A stretch of 21,544 nt of DNA. Source: a virus. A program made the translations under genes and the position numbers. Under the pieces are notes generated by a model. That model worked only from the letters and a program-made list of their open reading frames with translations. It did no database searches and was not told the origin of the DNA. This document shows, one piece after another, positions 7,032-21,291 of this stretch. The stretch covers positions 1 to 21,544 of the IMG/VR virus record IMGVR_UViG_3300023174_007610; one strand, 5' to 3'. Position 1 is the first letter of the stretch. Every line of letters starts with the position of its first letter.

Positions 7032-8378
7032 TTATGAAACATAAACAACAACTATACCTTGTCCGCCAGCTCCTCCGCTACCGCCAGCTGTCGCGGTTCC
7101 ACCTTGAGTGCCGCCTCCACCGCCACCACCTCCTCCGCCGCCTCCTGGAGCAGTAGCAGCGCCTCCGGTAGACCCTGTGTTTGAGTTGCCATCATCTATC
7201 CCAAGTTTTACGTTTACAACCCAAATAGAGCTTCCACCTTGGCCACCAACTGCGCCTTGAGGCGCCGCACCTGATCCGCCTGACCCGCCGGCATAGTTAT
7301 AAGTGCTGCCACCATTTCCATATGCGCCACCGCCACCACCGCCACCACCACCTCCGAATGACAATGAAGGGATATTAGCGTCAGATAAATTGATAGCTGA
7401 GTTGTTAGCAGTTCCAGCATTTCCAGGACTACCAGCGCCTCCAGCACTGTTCCCATTACCACCATTGCCACCGTTAGTAGAATTTGAAACTACAGCGCCT
7501 GCTACATTCGAGAATCCACCAGAACTTGCGTTAGCGAGTCCACCGAAGTTTGAAGTACTGCCAACGCTTACTGCAAATACATCACCTGCGGTAACTGCAT
7601 AGTCCTTAAAACCTACACCAGCTCCGCTTCTACCACCTGCGCCGCCTTTACCAGAGGGAGAAGGCGCTGATGCTGACCCAGAAGAACCTGAAGCTCCTGC
7701 TGAAATTACAATAGCAGCAAGTCTAGTTTTACCTGCTGGGACCGTGTAGTTACCTGATGCGTTAAATGTTTGTGACAGAGCATAGGCAGGCGCAACTGGA
7801 GTAGCAGAGTTTGACGCACTTGACGCCGCGCTAGTGCCGTTAGCGTTTGTGGCTGTAACCGTGAATGTATACGCAGTACCATTACTCAATCCTGTAACTG
7901 TAATTGGTGATGCACCTGTGCCTGTAAATGATCCAGGACTTGATGTCGCTGTGTATGTAGACACTGCTGCTCCACCCGTCGCACCCGCTGTGTAGGCTAC
8001 GGTTGCGCTGCCATTTCCAGCAGTAGCTGACCCAATGGTAGGCGCTTGAGGTACAGTTGTTGCGGTAATTGAATTTGACGCTGATGATGCCGCGCTTGTG
8101 CCCGCTGCTGAGGTTGCAGTAACACTAAATGTATACGATGTGCCAGACTGCAAACCAGTCACTGTTAGAGGGCTTGATGCACCAGATGCAGTAAATCCAC
8201 CAGGCGAGCTAGTGACTGTGTAGCTAGTAATAGGTAGCTTGCTTGTAGGTGCAGTAAATGTTACCGTCGCAGCGCCATTGTTATACGCACGACCTGTACC
8301 TACGTTAGTTGCTGTTCCTATAGTAGGCGCAACAGGTATTGATTTAGCGCCCGACGCGCCGGATCCAAGAATGGGCAT
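7032..8378 (-). CDS. Glycine-rich tail-tip adhesin with two FN3 domains
   Basis: This 448-residue protein starts MPILG, the hallmark of five paralogues in this window. Residues about 14-108 and 109-196 are two fibronectin type III domains (endings TSYTFSVTATS and TAYTFTVTATN). The join ALSQTFNASGNYTVPAGKT (about 200-218) leads into a Gly/Ser/Ala-rich domain with runs of up to ten glycines, ending GIVVVYVS. Glycine-rich tips of this kind, like the poly-Gly type II sandwich of T-even-like gp38 adhesins, bind host receptors; that role is inferred here. It is read from a compact promoter with no room for an SD. It is the only tail-tip paralogue on the minus strand and lies 14 nt after the recombinase stop. 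Confidence 0.8.
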   Translation of the reverse strand: MPILGSGASGAKSIPVAPTIGTATNVGTGRAYNNGAATVTFTAPTSKLPITSYTVTSSPGGFTASGASSPLTVTGLQSGTSYTFSVTATSAAGTSAASSASNSITATTVPQAPTIGSATAGNGSATVAYTAGATGGAAVSTYTATSSPGSFTGTGASPITVTGLSNGTAYTFTVTATNANGTSAASSASNSATPVAPAYALSQTFNASGNYTVPAGKTRLAAIVISAGASGSSGSASAPSPSGKGGAGGRSGAGVGFKDYAVTAGDVFAVSVGSTSNFGGLANASSGGFSNVAGAVVSNSTNGGNGGNGNSAGGAGSPGNAGTANNSAINLSDANIPSLSFGGGGGGGGGGAYGNGGSTYNYAGGSGGSGAAPQGAVGGQGGSSIWVVNVKLGIDDGNSNTGSTGGAATAPGGGGGGGGGGGGTQGGTATAGGSGGAGGQGIVVVYVS

Positions 8379-12697: not shown

Positions 12698-12964
12698 ATG
12701 GATTATCCTGAGGACCCAGAGTACGCTGACGATGATGTTCTACAGCAGTACCTTGATGAAGAGGGTTTAGCCTTAGTACCTGTTGAATTCATGCGTGAAT
12801 TGATGCTTCTTATGGAGGCTCACATCGTCAACGTATGCGAAGTAGATAGAGACGAACTCAACGAGATAATGATACGTATGGAGGAGCTTTTAGGAGAAGA
12901 GGGTCTTATGGACCTATCCATGGAAGATATCATTGGCTGGGTAAATACGTTAAAGGACGCCTAG
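12698..12964 (+). CDS. Small acidic protein of unknown function
   Basis: This is an 88-residue protein, rich in Asp and Glu throughout. The N-terminus MDYPEDPEYADDD is followed by mostly amphipathic helix (about 14-85), with LMLLMEAHIV and EIMIRMEELLGEEG. There is no signal peptide, span or catalytic motif. Such acidic helical proteins in phages are sometimes inhibitors or DNA mimics, but nothing specific supports that here. The gene appears leaderless (-10 six nt before ATG) and precedes the structured RNA candidate. Confidence 0.6.
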   Translation: MDYPEDPEYADDDVLQQYLDEEGLALVPVEFMRELMLLMEAHIVNVCEVDRDELNEIMIRMEELLGEEGLMDLSMEDIIGWVNTLKDA

Positions 12965-12985
12965 CCTTCCTGTTATAATTTAACT

Positions 12986-13214
12986 ATCGCTACTGGCCTG
13001 GAGCCGCTACTATTAACTTGTCACGACGAAAGTGAAGTCTAGCTAATCCCGCTACTGCGAATCGTCCTGGACATGACGTACAACTGTCATCCACTCCAAC
13101 TTCAGAGTTGAGTGTCTAGCACTGGCTGGGTAGACATCGAGTGGGTAGTTGATAAGCGGGCTACCTTTAGGGTAGTATACAAAGCGCTGCCAGTGCTAGA
13201 CTCGATTCTTTTTT
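12986..13214 (+). ncRNA. Candidate structured noncoding RNA with own promoter and terminator
   Basis: A consensus TATAAT at 12974-12979 predicts a start near 12986. No worthwhile ORF or SD-preceded start exists. Local hairpins are visible at 13016-13038 (ACT/TCAC with GTGA/AGT), 13069-13092 (ATGAC with GTCAT, 8-nt loop) and 13092-13114 (9 bp, one bulged C, TCAG loop). A perfect 13-bp stem, GTCTAGCACTGGC (13114-13126) with GCCAGTGCTAGAC (13189-13201), encloses 62 nt including CTACC-TTTAG-GGTAG (13161-13175). It is followed by TTCTTTTTT. CGCTACT occurs three times in the 5' half and GGGTAG three times in the 3' half; these can pair, suggesting alternative folds. I could not match it to a known RNA class. 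It could be a trans-acting RNA or a long regulated leader, but the terminator lies before the cupin gene's own promoter. Confidence 0.62.
13114..13214 (+). terminator. Long-stem terminator of the RNA candidate
   Basis: The 13-bp perfect stem closes a 62-nt branched loop and is followed at once by a T-rich tract (13206-13214). The 5' copy of ACTGGC at 12992-12997 can compete for the 3' arm, so termination might be conditional. Confidence 0.6.
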
Positions 13215-13225
13215 ATTATTTATGA

Positions 13226-13231
13226 TACAGT
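13226..13231 (+). promoter_or_regulatory. -10 box of a leaderless promoter for the cupin gene
   Basis: GATACAGT is followed by six bases (CCGTAC) and ATG at 13238. The overlapping TATGAT at 13221-13226 is an alternative -10 that would give a leader of only a few nucleotides. No SD is present. Confidence 0.5.
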
Positions 13232-13237
13232 CCGTAC

Positions 13238-13588
13238 ATGACACCAGAGATCTTTGTTCGCCCTTGGGGCTTTTATGTAATCCTGCACACTGAGCAAAAG
13301 GTGCAGGTTAAACGAATACATGTTGAAAACGGAAGTCGTCTCAGCAAGCAATCTCACAAACACCGCGCAGAGCATTGGTACATCACCTCAGGCTACGCGG
13401 AGGTTGAGCTATTTGACCAGATACTTCATCTTGGCCCAGGAGACTACGTGTCAATCGGAGTTGGAGAAGTTCACCGCGTAAGAGCCGAAGGCGAAGGCGA
13501 CCTAGTCTTTATCGAGATTCAAACAGGTGAGTATCTTGGAGAAGACGACATCCAGCGCTTTGAGGATGACTTTGGGAGAGTAGAGTAA
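13238..13588 (+). CDS. Stand-alone cupin, mannose-6-phosphate isomerase type II-like
   Basis: This is a 116-residue protein covering just the cupin domain of type II phosphomannose isomerase/GDP-mannose pyrophosphorylase. It shows RPWGFY (8-13), VKRIHVENGSRLSKQSHKH (24-42), RAEHWYITSG (43-52), GDYVSIGVGEVHR (68-80), and the family ending IEIQTGEYLGEDDIQRFEDDFGR. Likely metal ligands are H40, H42, E45 and H79. The nucleotidyltransferase half is absent. In the same family this domain interconverts fructose-6-P and mannose-6-P, so a role in sugar metabolism for glycans is plausible. Single-domain versions may do something else. Its stop overlaps the next ATG by one base. Confidence 0.82.
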   Translation: MTPEIFVRPWGFYVILHTEQKVQVKRIHVENGSRLSKQSHKHRAEHWYITSGYAEVELFDQILHLGPGDYVSIGVGEVHRVRAEGEGDLVFIEIQTGEYLGEDDIQRFEDDFGRVE

Positions 13589-15381: not shown

Positions 15382-16464
15382 ATGCCTATCATCGGATCAA
15401 GTGCCAGCCCTAAGGGTGTGCCTACAGCGCCTACCATCGGTACCGCGACAGCTGGTGACGCAAGCGCATCTGTAACTTTTACAGCGCCTAGCTTTTCTAA
15501 GCTTCCTATAACTTCTTACACAGTTACAGCAAGCCCAGGTGGTGCAACAGGCACAGGTTCATCAAGCCCGATTACTGTCTCCGGCTTATCTAACGGCACA
15601 GCATACACATTCACAGTCCGCGCATCTCATGCAAACGGTCAATCAGCTGCTTCAAGTGCGTCAAACTCTGCATCTCCGGCTCAGCCAACTTATGCCTTAT
15701 CACAAACATTTAACGCTAGCGGTAATTACACGGTACCAGCCAGTATGACTAAGATTGCAGTCTATGGCTGGGGTGGCGGAGGAGCAGGCGGAAGCACAGG
15801 CTCTCAGTATCAAGGAGCTGGCGGTGGCGGAGGCGGAGGATTTGCTTTTCAAGAGTATTCAGTAACACCTGGACAGAATTTTGTAGTAACTATCGGTGCG
15901 GGTGGTAACAGAAACGGCACTAGAAATGCCGGAACTACATATTTTTCTAGCTTAGGAACTGCAGACGGTGGTACAGCTGGAAGTGCTAATAGCCACACTT
16001 CCGCGGGTTCTGGCGGCGGCGGTTCGTCTGGAGTTTCTGGTGCAGTTACATCTAATGGTGGAAATGGTGGAGCGCAGGGTGGCGCCGGCGGAGCTGCTAG
16101 TAGTCTAACTCTTAACGCTGCTGGCTTAGGTTCTGTAACTCGTGGCGGTGGAGGTGGTGCTGGTGGAGCGCAGACTAACGCTATATCCGACGGAGACGCC
16201 ACTGATCCAGGTCAATCTGGTACAGCGGGAGGCTCTCCAAATGGAGGAACTGGCGGGCAAAGCTACACATCACAGACATTTTCTTACGGCGTAACTAGCG
16301 CTTCGCAAGGAGCAACTGGTGGTGCTGGTGGAACAGCTGGTGGCGGTGGTGGCGGCGGTGGAGGCGGGTACGCTCTTCGCCCTAGCGGTGGATCAGCAGG
16401 TCCTTATAACTCAGGCGCTGGTGGCAACGGTGGTTCTGGTCAGATATTAGTCTACGTTAGATAA
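15382..16464 (+). CDS. Glycine-rich tail-tip adhesin with one FN3 domain
   Basis: This is a 360-residue MPIIG-type paralogue. One FN3 domain spans about 13-97. ALSQTFNASGNYTVPASMT links it to the glycine-rich domain (about 120-350), which has aromatic and polar insertions between Gly runs and ends GQILVYVR. Part of its FN3 domain is identical in sequence to the 17827 protein over 29 residues. The glycine-rich parts diverge most between paralogues, as expected if they determine receptor choice. It is flanked by terminators on both sides and so forms a one-gene unit. Confidence 0.8.
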   Translation: MPIIGSSASPKGVPTAPTIGTATAGDASASVTFTAPSFSKLPITSYTVTASPGGATGTGSSSPITVSGLSNGTAYTFTVRASHANGQSAASSASNSASPAQPTYALSQTFNASGNYTVPASMTKIAVYGWGGGGAGGSTGSQYQGAGGGGGGGFAFQEYSVTPGQNFVVTIGAGGNRNGTRNAGTTYFSSLGTADGGTAGSANSHTSAGSGGGGSSGVSGAVTSNGGNGGAQGGAGGAASSLTLNAAGLGSVTRGGGGGAGGAQTNAISDGDATDPGQSGTAGGSPNGGTGGQSYTSQTFSYGVTSASQGATGGAGGTAGGGGGGGGGGYALRPSGGSAGPYNSGAGGNGGSGQILVYVR

Positions 16465-17826: not shown

Positions 17827-18921
17827 ATGCCAATTCTAGGATCAAGTGGCTCACAAAGTGGACGTTTACCAGAAGTCGTGTCTGGAGTTTCTGCTGTTGC
17901 AGGAGATGCGTCGGCTATTGTAAGTTTTACTGAACCAACTTACAAAGGTAAAGGAACTATATCCTACACTGTTACTTCTAGCCCCGGAGGAGCAACTGGT
18001 ACAGGCTCATCGAGCCCTATTACGGTTTCAGGACTTTCAAATGGAACTGCGTATACATTTACTGTAACTGCATCTTCTTCTGGTATAAGCGCTGCTGCAA
18101 GCTCTGCGTCTTCTAGCATAACTCCTGTCGCCCCTATAGTCTACACGTTATCACAGACGTTTAACTCTTCTGGCACTTACACAGTCCCATCGGGCAAAAC
18201 TAAGCTAGCAACATACGTAATTGGTGGCGGAGCTGCAGGCGCTAGCTCTGGCTTTTATCTAGGGTACTTTGGCGGAGGCGGTGGTGGTGGAGTTGCATTC
18301 CAGGACTACGCTGTGACACCAGGTCAAACTTACGCAGTTACTATCGGTGGCGCTGCTACCTCTGGCAACGCTGGCACCGCGTCTTCATTCTCAACGTTGG
18401 CAACTGCTAATGGTGGAACACTTAGCAACCCTGCTGTTGGCGGAAATGGCTCTTCAAACGTAGGCGGGGCAGTTACTGCAACAGGAGGCACTGGTGGGAA
18501 CTACGTTGGCGCCGACGCTGCTGGTGCTTCTGGCACGGGTTCAGGTTCTCTTAGTCTTAATGGCACTGGTCTAGTTTCAGGAATGACTTGGGGCGGCGGA
18601 GGCGGTGGTGGCGGTGGAGGTGGTGCAAATGGTTCTAGCCCTAGATTTAGAGGAGGCGGTGCAGGTGGAGCAGGCGCTGCTGCTGGAAACGTAGGTGGAG
18701 TTGCTGGCAATGGCGGTGCAGGAGGCTACTCTTCAACTGACAGCGCTAACTCGGGTTCAGTTGGTAGCGGTGCTCCCGGGAATGCCGGTTCACAGCCTGG
18801 CGCCGGTGGAGGTGGCGGTGGAGGTGGCGGTCAGGCAGCGCTAAGAAGCGGGCAGCTAGACGGAGCTGCTGGTGCTGGCGGCGCTGGATCTTCTGGCAGA
18901 GTTTACGTTTACATAGCTTAA
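17827..18921 (+). CDS. Glycine-rich tail-tip adhesin with one FN3 domain
   Basis: This is a 364-residue MPILG-type paralogue. The FN3 domain is at about 16-100. The linker LSQTFNSSGTYTVPSGKTKLA (about 107-127) leads to a glycine-rich domain with runs of nine or more glycines, ending GRVYVYIA. Translation is coupled to the 41-residue gene. The FN3 core repeats that of the 15382 protein exactly for 29 residues but with different codons. A plausible role is a receptor-binding tail tip. Confidence 0.8.
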   Translation: MPILGSSGSQSGRLPEVVSGVSAVAGDASAIVSFTEPTYKGKGTISYTVTSSPGGATGTGSSSPITVSGLSNGTAYTFTVTASSSGISAAASSASSSITPVAPIVYTLSQTFNSSGTYTVPSGKTKLATYVIGGGAAGASSGFYLGYFGGGGGGGVAFQDYAVTPGQTYAVTIGGAATSGNAGTASSFSTLATANGGTLSNPAVGGNGSSNVGGAVTATGGTGGNYVGADAAGASGTGSGSLSLNGTGLVSGMTWGGGGGGGGGGGANGSSPRFRGGGAGGAGAAAGNVGGVAGNGGAGGYSSTDSANSGSVGSGAPGNAGSQPGAGGGGGGGGGQAALRSGQLDGAAGAGGAGSSGRVYVYIA

Positions 18922-20172: not shown

Positions 20173-21291
20173 ATGCCTATACTTGGAACGTCTTCATCAC
20201 GCGGCGGAGGAACTCCTACCGCACCCACTAGCGTTTCAGCTACGGCGGGAAATGCACAAGCAGTTGTAACTTTCACCGCAAGTTCTTATACAGGCAAAGG
20301 AAGCGTTACCTACACCGCGATTTCAAGTCCTGGAAATATCACCGCGAGTGGGACAAGTCCTATCACCGTTACGGGATTAAGTAATGGAACTGCATATACA
20401 TTTACAGTAAGAGCTACGTCATCGACTGGCGAAATAGCAACTTCAAGTGCAAGTTCAAGTGTTACACCTGTTGCACCTGTTTACACTCTTTCACAAACAT
20501 TTACTGCCTCTGGTACATACACAGTACCCGCCGACAAGACTAAGATTGCTTTAGTTGGAATTGGCTCAGGCGGAGGCGGCGGTGGAGGCGCCGGTGGAAC
20601 TAGAGCTGGTGGCGGTGGAGGTGGAGGTAGCGGCTCTACTTTCTGTATTAGAGAAATTTCAACAACACCTGGAACTAACTATACCGTGACAGTTTCTGCA
20701 GGTGGTTCTGGAGGGTCTTTTGGAAGCGCAAATAGCGATGGAAATCCTGGAAATCCTGGAGGAATTACTTCTTTTGGAAACATTCTAACAGTTAACGGAG
20801 CAAATGGTGGTGCAAAAGGTTCAGCTAGCACTGCTGCTGGCGGGACTGGTGGAACTATAACATATAACGCTGGAATCGCAGATGTTGCAGTTACTGGAGC
20901 TGCTGGTGGCACTGGTGGAGTATATAGTAACTCGATAGGTGGCACTGGTGGAAATATGTCAGCTATAGTTTCTAATGATCCAAACGTTACAACAGTAAAT
21001 ATTTATGGTGGTGCTGGTGGTGGAGGTTCAGGTGGAAGATATTCTAATACGACACCAGACACTACTAGAAATGCTGGTGGTGGGGCCGGATCACCTAGCG
21101 GAGGCGCTGGTGGTGGAGGCTCTAACTATGGAAATATTAGCGGTGGTGCTGGCGGGGGAACATTAAGCTATAGAGGTGGAGGCGCCGGTGGAGGCGGCGC
21201 AGGCGCTGCTAATTTATCTGAAGGAGCATACTCTAGCGGTGGAAACGGTGGAGTTGCAAGTGACTCAGTCATTTTAGTATATGCTAGATAG
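20173..21291 (+). CDS. Glycine-rich tail-tip adhesin with one FN3 domain
   Basis: This is a 372-residue MPILG-type paralogue. The FN3 domain is at about 15-99. The linker TLSQTFTASGTYTVPADKTKIA leads to a long glycine-rich domain with several TGGTGG and GGGGSGG segments, ending VILVYAR. It is the largest of the four plus-strand copies. Its FN3 domain is close to the 15382 and 17827 proteins but not identical. A receptor-binding role is inferred. Confidence 0.8.
   Translation: MPILGTSSSRGGGTPTAPTSVSATAGNAQAVVTFTASSYTGKGSVTYTAISSPGNITASGTSPITVTGLSNGTAYTFTVRATSSTGEIATSSASSSVTPVAPVYTLSQTFTASGTYTVPADKTKIALVGIGSGGGGGGGAGGTRAGGGGGGGSGSTFCIREISTTPGTNYTVTVSAGGSGGSFGSANSDGNPGNPGGITSFGNILTVNGANGGAKGSASTAAGGTGGTITYNAGIADVAVTGAAGGTGGVYSNSIGGTGGNMSAIVSNDPNVTTVNIYGGAGGGGSGGRYSNTTPDTTRNAGGGAGSPSGGAGGGGSNYGNISGGAGGGTLSYRGGGAGGGGAGAANLSEGAYSSGGNGGVASDSVILVYAR

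Follow-up and report, generated by a model that had tools for sequence, protein, structure and literature searches.

The window analysed here is the whole of a 21.5-kb viral record (IMG/VR record IMGVR_UViG_3300023174_007610, 21,544 nucleotides). Between two protein genes near its middle it carries a stretch that, virtually beyond doubt, encodes a structured RNA gene. This RNA is without an earlier catalogue entry and comes from a lake-type or freshwater-type phage family. The structure supported by our analysis (13063-13201) consists of two pseudoknots, a 13-bp stem and two or three hairpins, and the first pseudoknot resembles coremin, an exonuclease-resistant RNA (xrRNA) of RNA viruses. The features of the locus are the following, with L numbers as our handles for the stretches that were compared.

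12698-12964: upstream gene, 88 amino acids, no family recognised
12971-12979, plus strand: extended -10 promoter element TGTTATAAT, with a predicted transcription start near 12986
12974: TATAAT
12986-13062, plus strand: 5' domain of type A, one long hairpin with 4 compensated pairs
12988, 13005 and 13050: CGCTACT
12992 and 13121: ACTGGC
13063-13088, plus strand: H-type pseudoknot 1, 26 nucleotides (nt), coremin-like
13063-13066 with 13075-13078, plus strand: stem S1 of pseudoknot 1, CGUC/GACG, invariant in 13 homologues
13070-13073 with 13085-13088, plus strand: stem S2 of pseudoknot 1, covarying in the family
13079-13084, plus strand: loop 3 of pseudoknot 1, UACAAC
13091-13096, plus strand: 5' strand of pseudoknot 2, CCACUC, pairing with 13139-13144
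13097-13110, plus strand: hairpin B, CAACU-UCAG-AGUUG (CAUCU/AGAUG in L082, L083 and L085)
13114-13126, plus strand: 5' strand of the perfect 13-bp stem, which pairs with 13189-13201 and closes a 62-nt loop; changes on both sides in 10 of 13 pairs, 100% of cells paired
13128, 13143 and 13170: GGGTAG
13136-13153, plus strand: hairpin C, AUC (13136-13138) with GAU (13151-13153); 97% of cells paired, one-sided changes only
13139-13144, plus strand: 3' strand of pseudoknot 2, GAGUGG, with covariation
13160-13176, plus strand: hairpin D, GCUACC (13160-13165) with GGUAGU (13171-13176); 4 pairs with changes on both sides
13161: CTACC
13189-13201, plus strand: 3' strand of the 13-bp stem, with covariation
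13209-13214, plus strand: T-run, a possible local 3' end and not a conserved part of the RNA
13221-13226, plus strand: TATGAT, a -10-like box of the downstream cupin gene, kept before the cupin in homologues even where the RNA lies 1.5 kb away
13238-13588: downstream gene, mannose-6-phosphate-isomerase-type cupin

About 20 viral contigs that carry the RNA at the same locus were obtained by searching with the cupin and with short exact sequence patterns; three distant homologues (L082, L083 and L085) came in addition. Thirteen distinct homologues were realigned by a covariance model, and 19 of the 41 pairs showed changes on both sides (0-3 in controls with slid partners) while 95.9% of the cells were paired (27-42% in the slid controls), counts which for the nested stems and S2 lean in their favour because the alignment was fitted to these, S1 and pseudoknot 2 lying outside the model. 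The observed covariation score was reached by none of 500 shuffles, and the fold z-score was -2.4 on the sense strand and about 0 on the antisense strand. Pseudoknot 2 reads CCGUCC/GGACGG in L022, with three pairs altered on both sides, and hairpin D reads GUAUGUC/GACAUGC in L083. The weakest element is hairpin C, in whose loop the 3' strand of pseudoknot 2 sits. S1 never varies within the window family, and its support therefore comes from the widespread phage form described below. A closing stem GAAUCG/CGAUUC around the core (model R1) was rejected, as it overlaps S1 and is not kept in the distant homologues, and the global minimum-energy fold is contradicted by the covariation.

The degree of conservation changes sharply along the RNA. 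From the pseudoknot onward, L003 and L012 are 92-97% identical to the window, compared with 80-83% in the 5' domain and 54-78% at the third codon positions of the neighbouring genes. The more diverged L022 retains 96% identity in the pseudoknot and 62% in the 3' domain, where most pairs are kept. The type A 5' domain (71-83% identity to L022, L003 and L012) gives way to an unrelated type B in L016, L017, L021, L082, L083 and L085. Such a jump at the pseudoknot, together with an exchangeable 5' domain, is what would be expected if the mature RNA starts there. The sequence TGNTATAAT precedes the RNA in the homologues seen, and the distant L082, L083 and L085 carry TGATATAAT.

The initial annotation had proposed a new structured phage RNA of about 230 nt with a promoter-like box, without an open reading frame (ORF) and not recognised as transfer RNA (tRNA), transfer-messenger RNA (tmRNA) or a known riboswitch, and this is supported. 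No conserved ORF exists in the region, ARAGORN found neither a tRNA nor a tmRNA in the window RNA, and the Rfam search that had been suggested gave no family of Rfam 15 at or above the gathering score in the window. The proposed comparison of homologues likewise revealed strong covariation and conserved stems. Elsewhere in the related loci only tRNA, FMN and TPP families were matched; a weak cyano-S1 match on the minus strand was judged to be due to chance. All motifs were found where they had been placed. In the dinucleotide-shuffled region a perfect 13-bp stem arose by chance in 0.05%, a 7-mer occurring three times in 0.85% and a 6-mer occurring three times in 12%, which makes the stem significant, the CGCTACT triplet mildly significant and the GGGTAG triplet not significant. 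The suggested switch between alternative folds through CUACU/GGUAG pairing of these repeats is not supported because they are not conserved, the CGCTACT copies reading CGCCACT, CACCTCT, CGCCATC, CGCCATT and others in homologues; for the same reason there is no support for the ACTGGC copy at 12992 as a competitor for the partner of the 13-bp stem. Pairing of CTACC at 13161 with any GGGTAG survives solely for the copy at 13170, which forms hairpin D, as copies 1 and 2 vary. The T-run is present in the window and missing in L022, L082, L083 and L085. That first account included neither pseudoknot and made no connection with a coremin-like element that is widespread.

In the window and most relatives the cupin follows the RNA. 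In L010 and L004, however, the two are 1.5 kb apart, with a gene of the fn3/glycine-rich type between them in L010, and in L082 the cupin is absent beside the RNA, the next gene being a convergent nuclease-like one. Since several relatives do not keep RNA and cupin together, the RNA is a module independent of that gene and probably a stand-alone RNA gene. No RNA match was obtained in the relatives L018, L019, L020 and L023 at the same locus, and in L019 a methyltransferase-like ORF occupies the gap between the two flanking genes. Four fn3 and glycine-rich genes lie in the window itself (7032-8378, 15382-16464, 17827-18921 and 20173-21291), and these, together with the similar one inserted in L010, may represent a mobile tail-protein module. 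TATGAT-type boxes such as that at 13221-13226 also precede other window genes and lie about 11-15 nt before some start codons, a spacing that suggests phage transcripts with no leader or almost none. For the window primase, the nearest named relative is that of Actinomycetia phage DSL-LC01, which is of lake origin, and from this kinship the host of the window phage is likely to be a freshwater actinobacterium. DSL-LC01 itself contains no convincing copy of the pseudoknot.

A pattern scan of viral contigs for the compact pseudoknot returned at least 120 stretches, where by our own estimate less than one chance match was expected. With S2 left free, 222 unique sites were obtained from both strands of 4.7 Mb of fetched DNA, a set which includes bacterial and window-family sites and was gathered mainly with the stricter pattern, so that the evidence for S2 comes mostly from the 43 looser sites. 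S2 covaries, with the variants GGGCA/UGCCC, GAGCA/UGCUC, AAACA/UGUUU, GGUCA/UGACC and CGGCA/UGUCG; at 73% of the 222 sites a standard pair stands at the outer position of S1 (CG 86, TG 26, AT 18, GC 15, TA 13, GT 4). Up to 8 copies occur per record, all on one strand, whereas the reversed control pattern gave 0; model R1 also matched several places in a 370-kb phage record, all of them CGUCCUGGGCAUGACGUUAAACUGCCC-like. Pseudoknot 1 of the window very probably has the same fold as this widespread element.

Among 102 phage sites the distance from the stop codon of a long frame to the pseudoknot is 5 nt in 37 and 6 nt in 14, and it is never below 4 nt; the next start codon typically lies about 23 nt further on. 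Copies precede scaffold and capsid genes in Staphylococcus phage B166 (L224) and Lactobacillus prophage Lj771 (L319) and a single-stranded-DNA-binding protein gene in S-EIVl; others lie beside tRNA genes. The B166 site is annotated as a promoter. The idea that the widespread element is a promoter of a phage RNA polymerase was rejected, since its covariation follows RNA base pairing. Exact-pattern matches in L080, L081 and L086-L091 were judged to be chance matches in coding sequence; the matches of 17 nt in Vibrio phages and those in Stenotrophomonas, Lactococcus and single-stranded RNA phages were also put down to chance. In L327 (Microbacterium phage A3Wally) a diverged pseudoknot GGUCCCGGGUGGGACGUAAAACUGCUC stands directly before a tRNA-like sequence and is preceded by another GUCCUGAG...AACUGCCC stretch, as if in tandem. 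The 3' domain of the window RNA was sought in the other pseudoknot-bearing phages and not found, and an 18-base pattern matched only known members. In its general topology the phage pseudoknot is similar to the preQ1-I, SAM-II and SAM-V riboswitches, which are small H-type pseudoknots with two short stems and an A-rich third loop; it differs from them in its conserved sequence, in having no Rfam match and in the lack of a consistent downstream gene.

A closer likeness is to coremin (xrRNA_C), which is known from beet necrotic yellow vein virus and other RNA viruses (PMC10520033, PMC5869530). It has the form GUCCGAAGACGUUAAACUAC, that is a 4-bp hairpin (hp1), a conserved spacer and then any small hairpin (hp2), and the hp1 loop is YGAD or also YGNNAD, lengths of 4-8 nt being tolerated, with some loops of 7 and 8 nt (PMC10520033). 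It stalls the 5'-3' exonuclease Xrn1 at the nucleotide before hp1 (PMC10520033). The published survey covered RNA viruses only. The phage element has GUCC...GACGUUAAACU, with GUCC, GAC and UUAAACU in the same order, and the window has the 4-bp hp1 stem with GUC/GAC as CGUC/GACG at 13063-13066/13075-13078. Both kinds of element are small and lie between genes or at the start of a non-coding RNA (ncRNA), with a stable ncRNA, in the phage a putative one, downstream.

There are differences as well. The window and the main phage form have an 8-nt loop that pairs past the spacer to give a pseudoknot of 4-5 bp. Where hp2 of coremin directly follows the spacer, the phage form has UGCCC pairing with the hp1 loop, and in the window hairpin B (13097-13110) comes only 8 nt further on. 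The window loop CUGGACAU is 8 nt long, starts with Y and ends with A-U, but has U at position 2; the coremin spacer UUAAACUAC corresponds to UACAACUGUC in the window and to UNAAACU, mostly UUAAACU, in the widespread phage form. The phage elements moreover lie in DNA phages, and their resistance to exonucleases is putative. As the window RNA departs from two strict features of coremin, the second loop base and the spacer, it is not filed as a member, although it would work like coremin. By the same analogy, the phage element would be a coremin-type exonuclease block in which loop-to-3' pairing replaces hp2.

Coremin itself also occurs in phages. A scan that allowed loops of 4, 5 and 6 nt found it in 30 different phage contexts, each with a 6-nt loop that follows the coremin loop rule (e.g. 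L134, L343 and L333), so that the lack of 4- and 5-nt loops acts as an internal control. The phage hexaloops CGAAAU and CGCAAU are identical to loops shown to stop Xrn1. In L134 the 8-nt-loop form is directly followed by CGUCCGAAAUGACGUUAAACUA, which is coremin with the Xrn1-resistant hexaloop CGAAAU. Several of the 6-nt-loop coremins (CGUCCGNNANGACGUUAAACU) in L328-L358 and L134 are located near tRNA genes. The flaviviral xrRNAs are likewise compact pseudoknotted folds that stop a 5'-3' exonuclease and leave a structured ncRNA, the subgenomic flaviviral RNA (sfRNA; PMC5760640), but they have a much larger three-way junction fold and no relation to the phage element in sequence or secondary structure.

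The pseudoknot was also found in 82 bacterial stretches (L230-L309), mostly overlapping the end of a short ORF. This ORF (e.g. in L255, L276 and L242) is conserved and has a strong Shine-Dalgarno sequence, and its peptides are like MDITIRYMLRPVAHCKEGCSKVSWARR or MKRFMIPRVAHCSEGCQFQSWA; they had no NCBIfam match and look like an undescribed leader peptide. In Omnitrophota loci (L255, L258, L271, L275, L283 and others) the downstream ORF begins MKLITRDTDYA and resembles a regulator of the Rrf2 type, and upstream of the leader peptide lies a promoter that contains the palindrome GATAC...GTATC; these genomes are mostly without RNase J. E. coli genomes and plasmids did not contain the motif apart from one chance-level match.

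The best explanation, to which we give an even chance, is that the pseudoknot blocks a 5'-3' exonuclease. Under this proposal, transcription would start near 12986 from the extended -10 promoter and give an RNA with an exchangeable 5' domain, the compact H-type pseudoknot at 13063-13088 and a rigid 3' domain that is closed by the 13-bp stem and tied back by pseudoknot 2. Once the 5' end has been opened, host RNase J would degrade the 5' domain until it is stopped immediately upstream of 13063. What remains would be a stable RNA of about 140 nt that runs from 13063 to about 13203, in analogy to the way in which coremin gives rise to ncRNA3, a stable RNA of beet necrotic yellow vein virus. One might guess that this product acts in trans as a regulator or decoy. 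RNase J, the 5'-3' exonuclease of bacteria, is a plausible enzyme: flaviviral xrRNA blocks RNase J1 (PMC5760640), the credible named carrier phages infect Firmicutes, Actinobacteria, cyanobacteria and Rhizobium, and among control genomes the RNase J family was matched in those of Bacillus, Corynebacterium, Lactococcus, Synechococcus and Caulobacter, with no match in E. coli.

Several observations speak against an exonuclease block of this kind. The window loop has no G at position 2 and its spacer is UACAAC instead of UUAAAC. The bacterial copies overlap a short ORF, and their use may differ from that in phages. An RNase J match was present in 24 of 38 pseudoknot-bearing bacterial genomes and lacking in 14, most Omnitrophota included, which implies that RNase J is not the only partner of the pseudoknot, and the correlation with hosts comes from short BLAST queries with no normalisation for database content. 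Finally, the narrow spacing of 5-6 nt past the stop codon in phages would also fit a role connected with the ribosome.

Such a role would place the pseudoknot where the mRNA enters a ribosome that has stopped at the upstream stop codon, and there it could control termination, recycling, re-initiation or readthrough. Half of the 102 phage sites start 5-6 nt past the stop and none closer than 4 nt, the bacterial copies overlap a short-ORF end with its strong Shine-Dalgarno sequence, and coremin also stalls scanning eukaryotic ribosomes (PMC10520033). However, the window RNA is not a coding one and has no gene's stop codon close by, other copies adjoin tRNA genes, and the presence of gaps of both 5 and 6 nt leaves no fixed frame for readthrough, so that we consider this explanation improbable. 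It is possible, though rather unlikely, that the RNA is a stand-alone regulator (a sponge, decoy or antisense RNA) in which the pseudoknot is architectural or binds a protein or ligand and arrests no exonuclease. The promoter element and the fold are conserved, and the 3' domain is specific to the window phage family, from which it follows that the RNA surely has a task beyond the pseudoknot. On the other hand, the pseudoknot recurs without the 3' domain, many times per phage genome, between genes and beside tRNAs, which favours a generic mechanical role, and its likeness to coremin is strong.

Two further explanations are rated lower. The manA RNAs occur in phages upstream of mannose-6-phosphate-isomerase-like genes, and the window RNA, a phage RNA upstream of such a gene (the cupin at 13238, which follows it in most relatives as well), could be a manA-like cis-acting leader or riboswitch. 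The manA covariance model (RF01745) nevertheless gave no match in the window and none in 12 of the 13 phage records, the single weak match (E 0.18) lying elsewhere in an unrelated record. The RNA is not tied to that gene, as seen in L010, L004 and L082, and the TATGAT box that the cupin has for itself at 13221-13226 argues against a leader common to both, all of which makes a cupin leader very improbable. That the stretch is just a large intrinsic terminator or a chance fold without RNA function is scarcely credible: the 13-bp stem is indeed followed by CTCGATTCTTTTTT, but the T-run is not conserved, the stem covaries together with the inner elements and both pseudoknots, and the 62-nt loop is itself conserved. 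A terminator scan reported no terminator-like site; an intrinsic terminator would be a short GC-rich hairpin with a U-run retained among homologues, whereas the loop here is 62 nt long and the T-run is lost in diverged homologues.

In the literature found, all the viral RNAs described as exonuclease-resistant come from viruses of eukaryotes, and no paper joining xrRNA, RNase J and phage was met with in a coverage that largely leaves out preprints and subscription papers. The broader suggestion is that DNA phages and some bacteria use a coremin-type pseudoknot widely against 5'-3' mRNA decay, cistron by cistron within operons, as well as for the ncRNA of the window family; we put this just short of an even chance. 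If true, single cistrons would be protected, e.g. in Staphylococcus and Lactobacillus phages by a copy before the scaffold and capsid genes, and there would be a simple assay for the way in which single phage cistrons are stabilised. The window RNA would then be a stable ncRNA made as a phage decay product, analogous to plant-virus ncRNA3 or flaviviral sfRNA. The presence of a coremin-like element in phages would raise the question of common origin versus convergence with the plant-virus elements. One RNA device would span plant RNA viruses, double-stranded RNA mycoviruses, DNA phages and bacterial leaders, and it would add a new layer to the conflict between phages and their hosts over mRNA decay.
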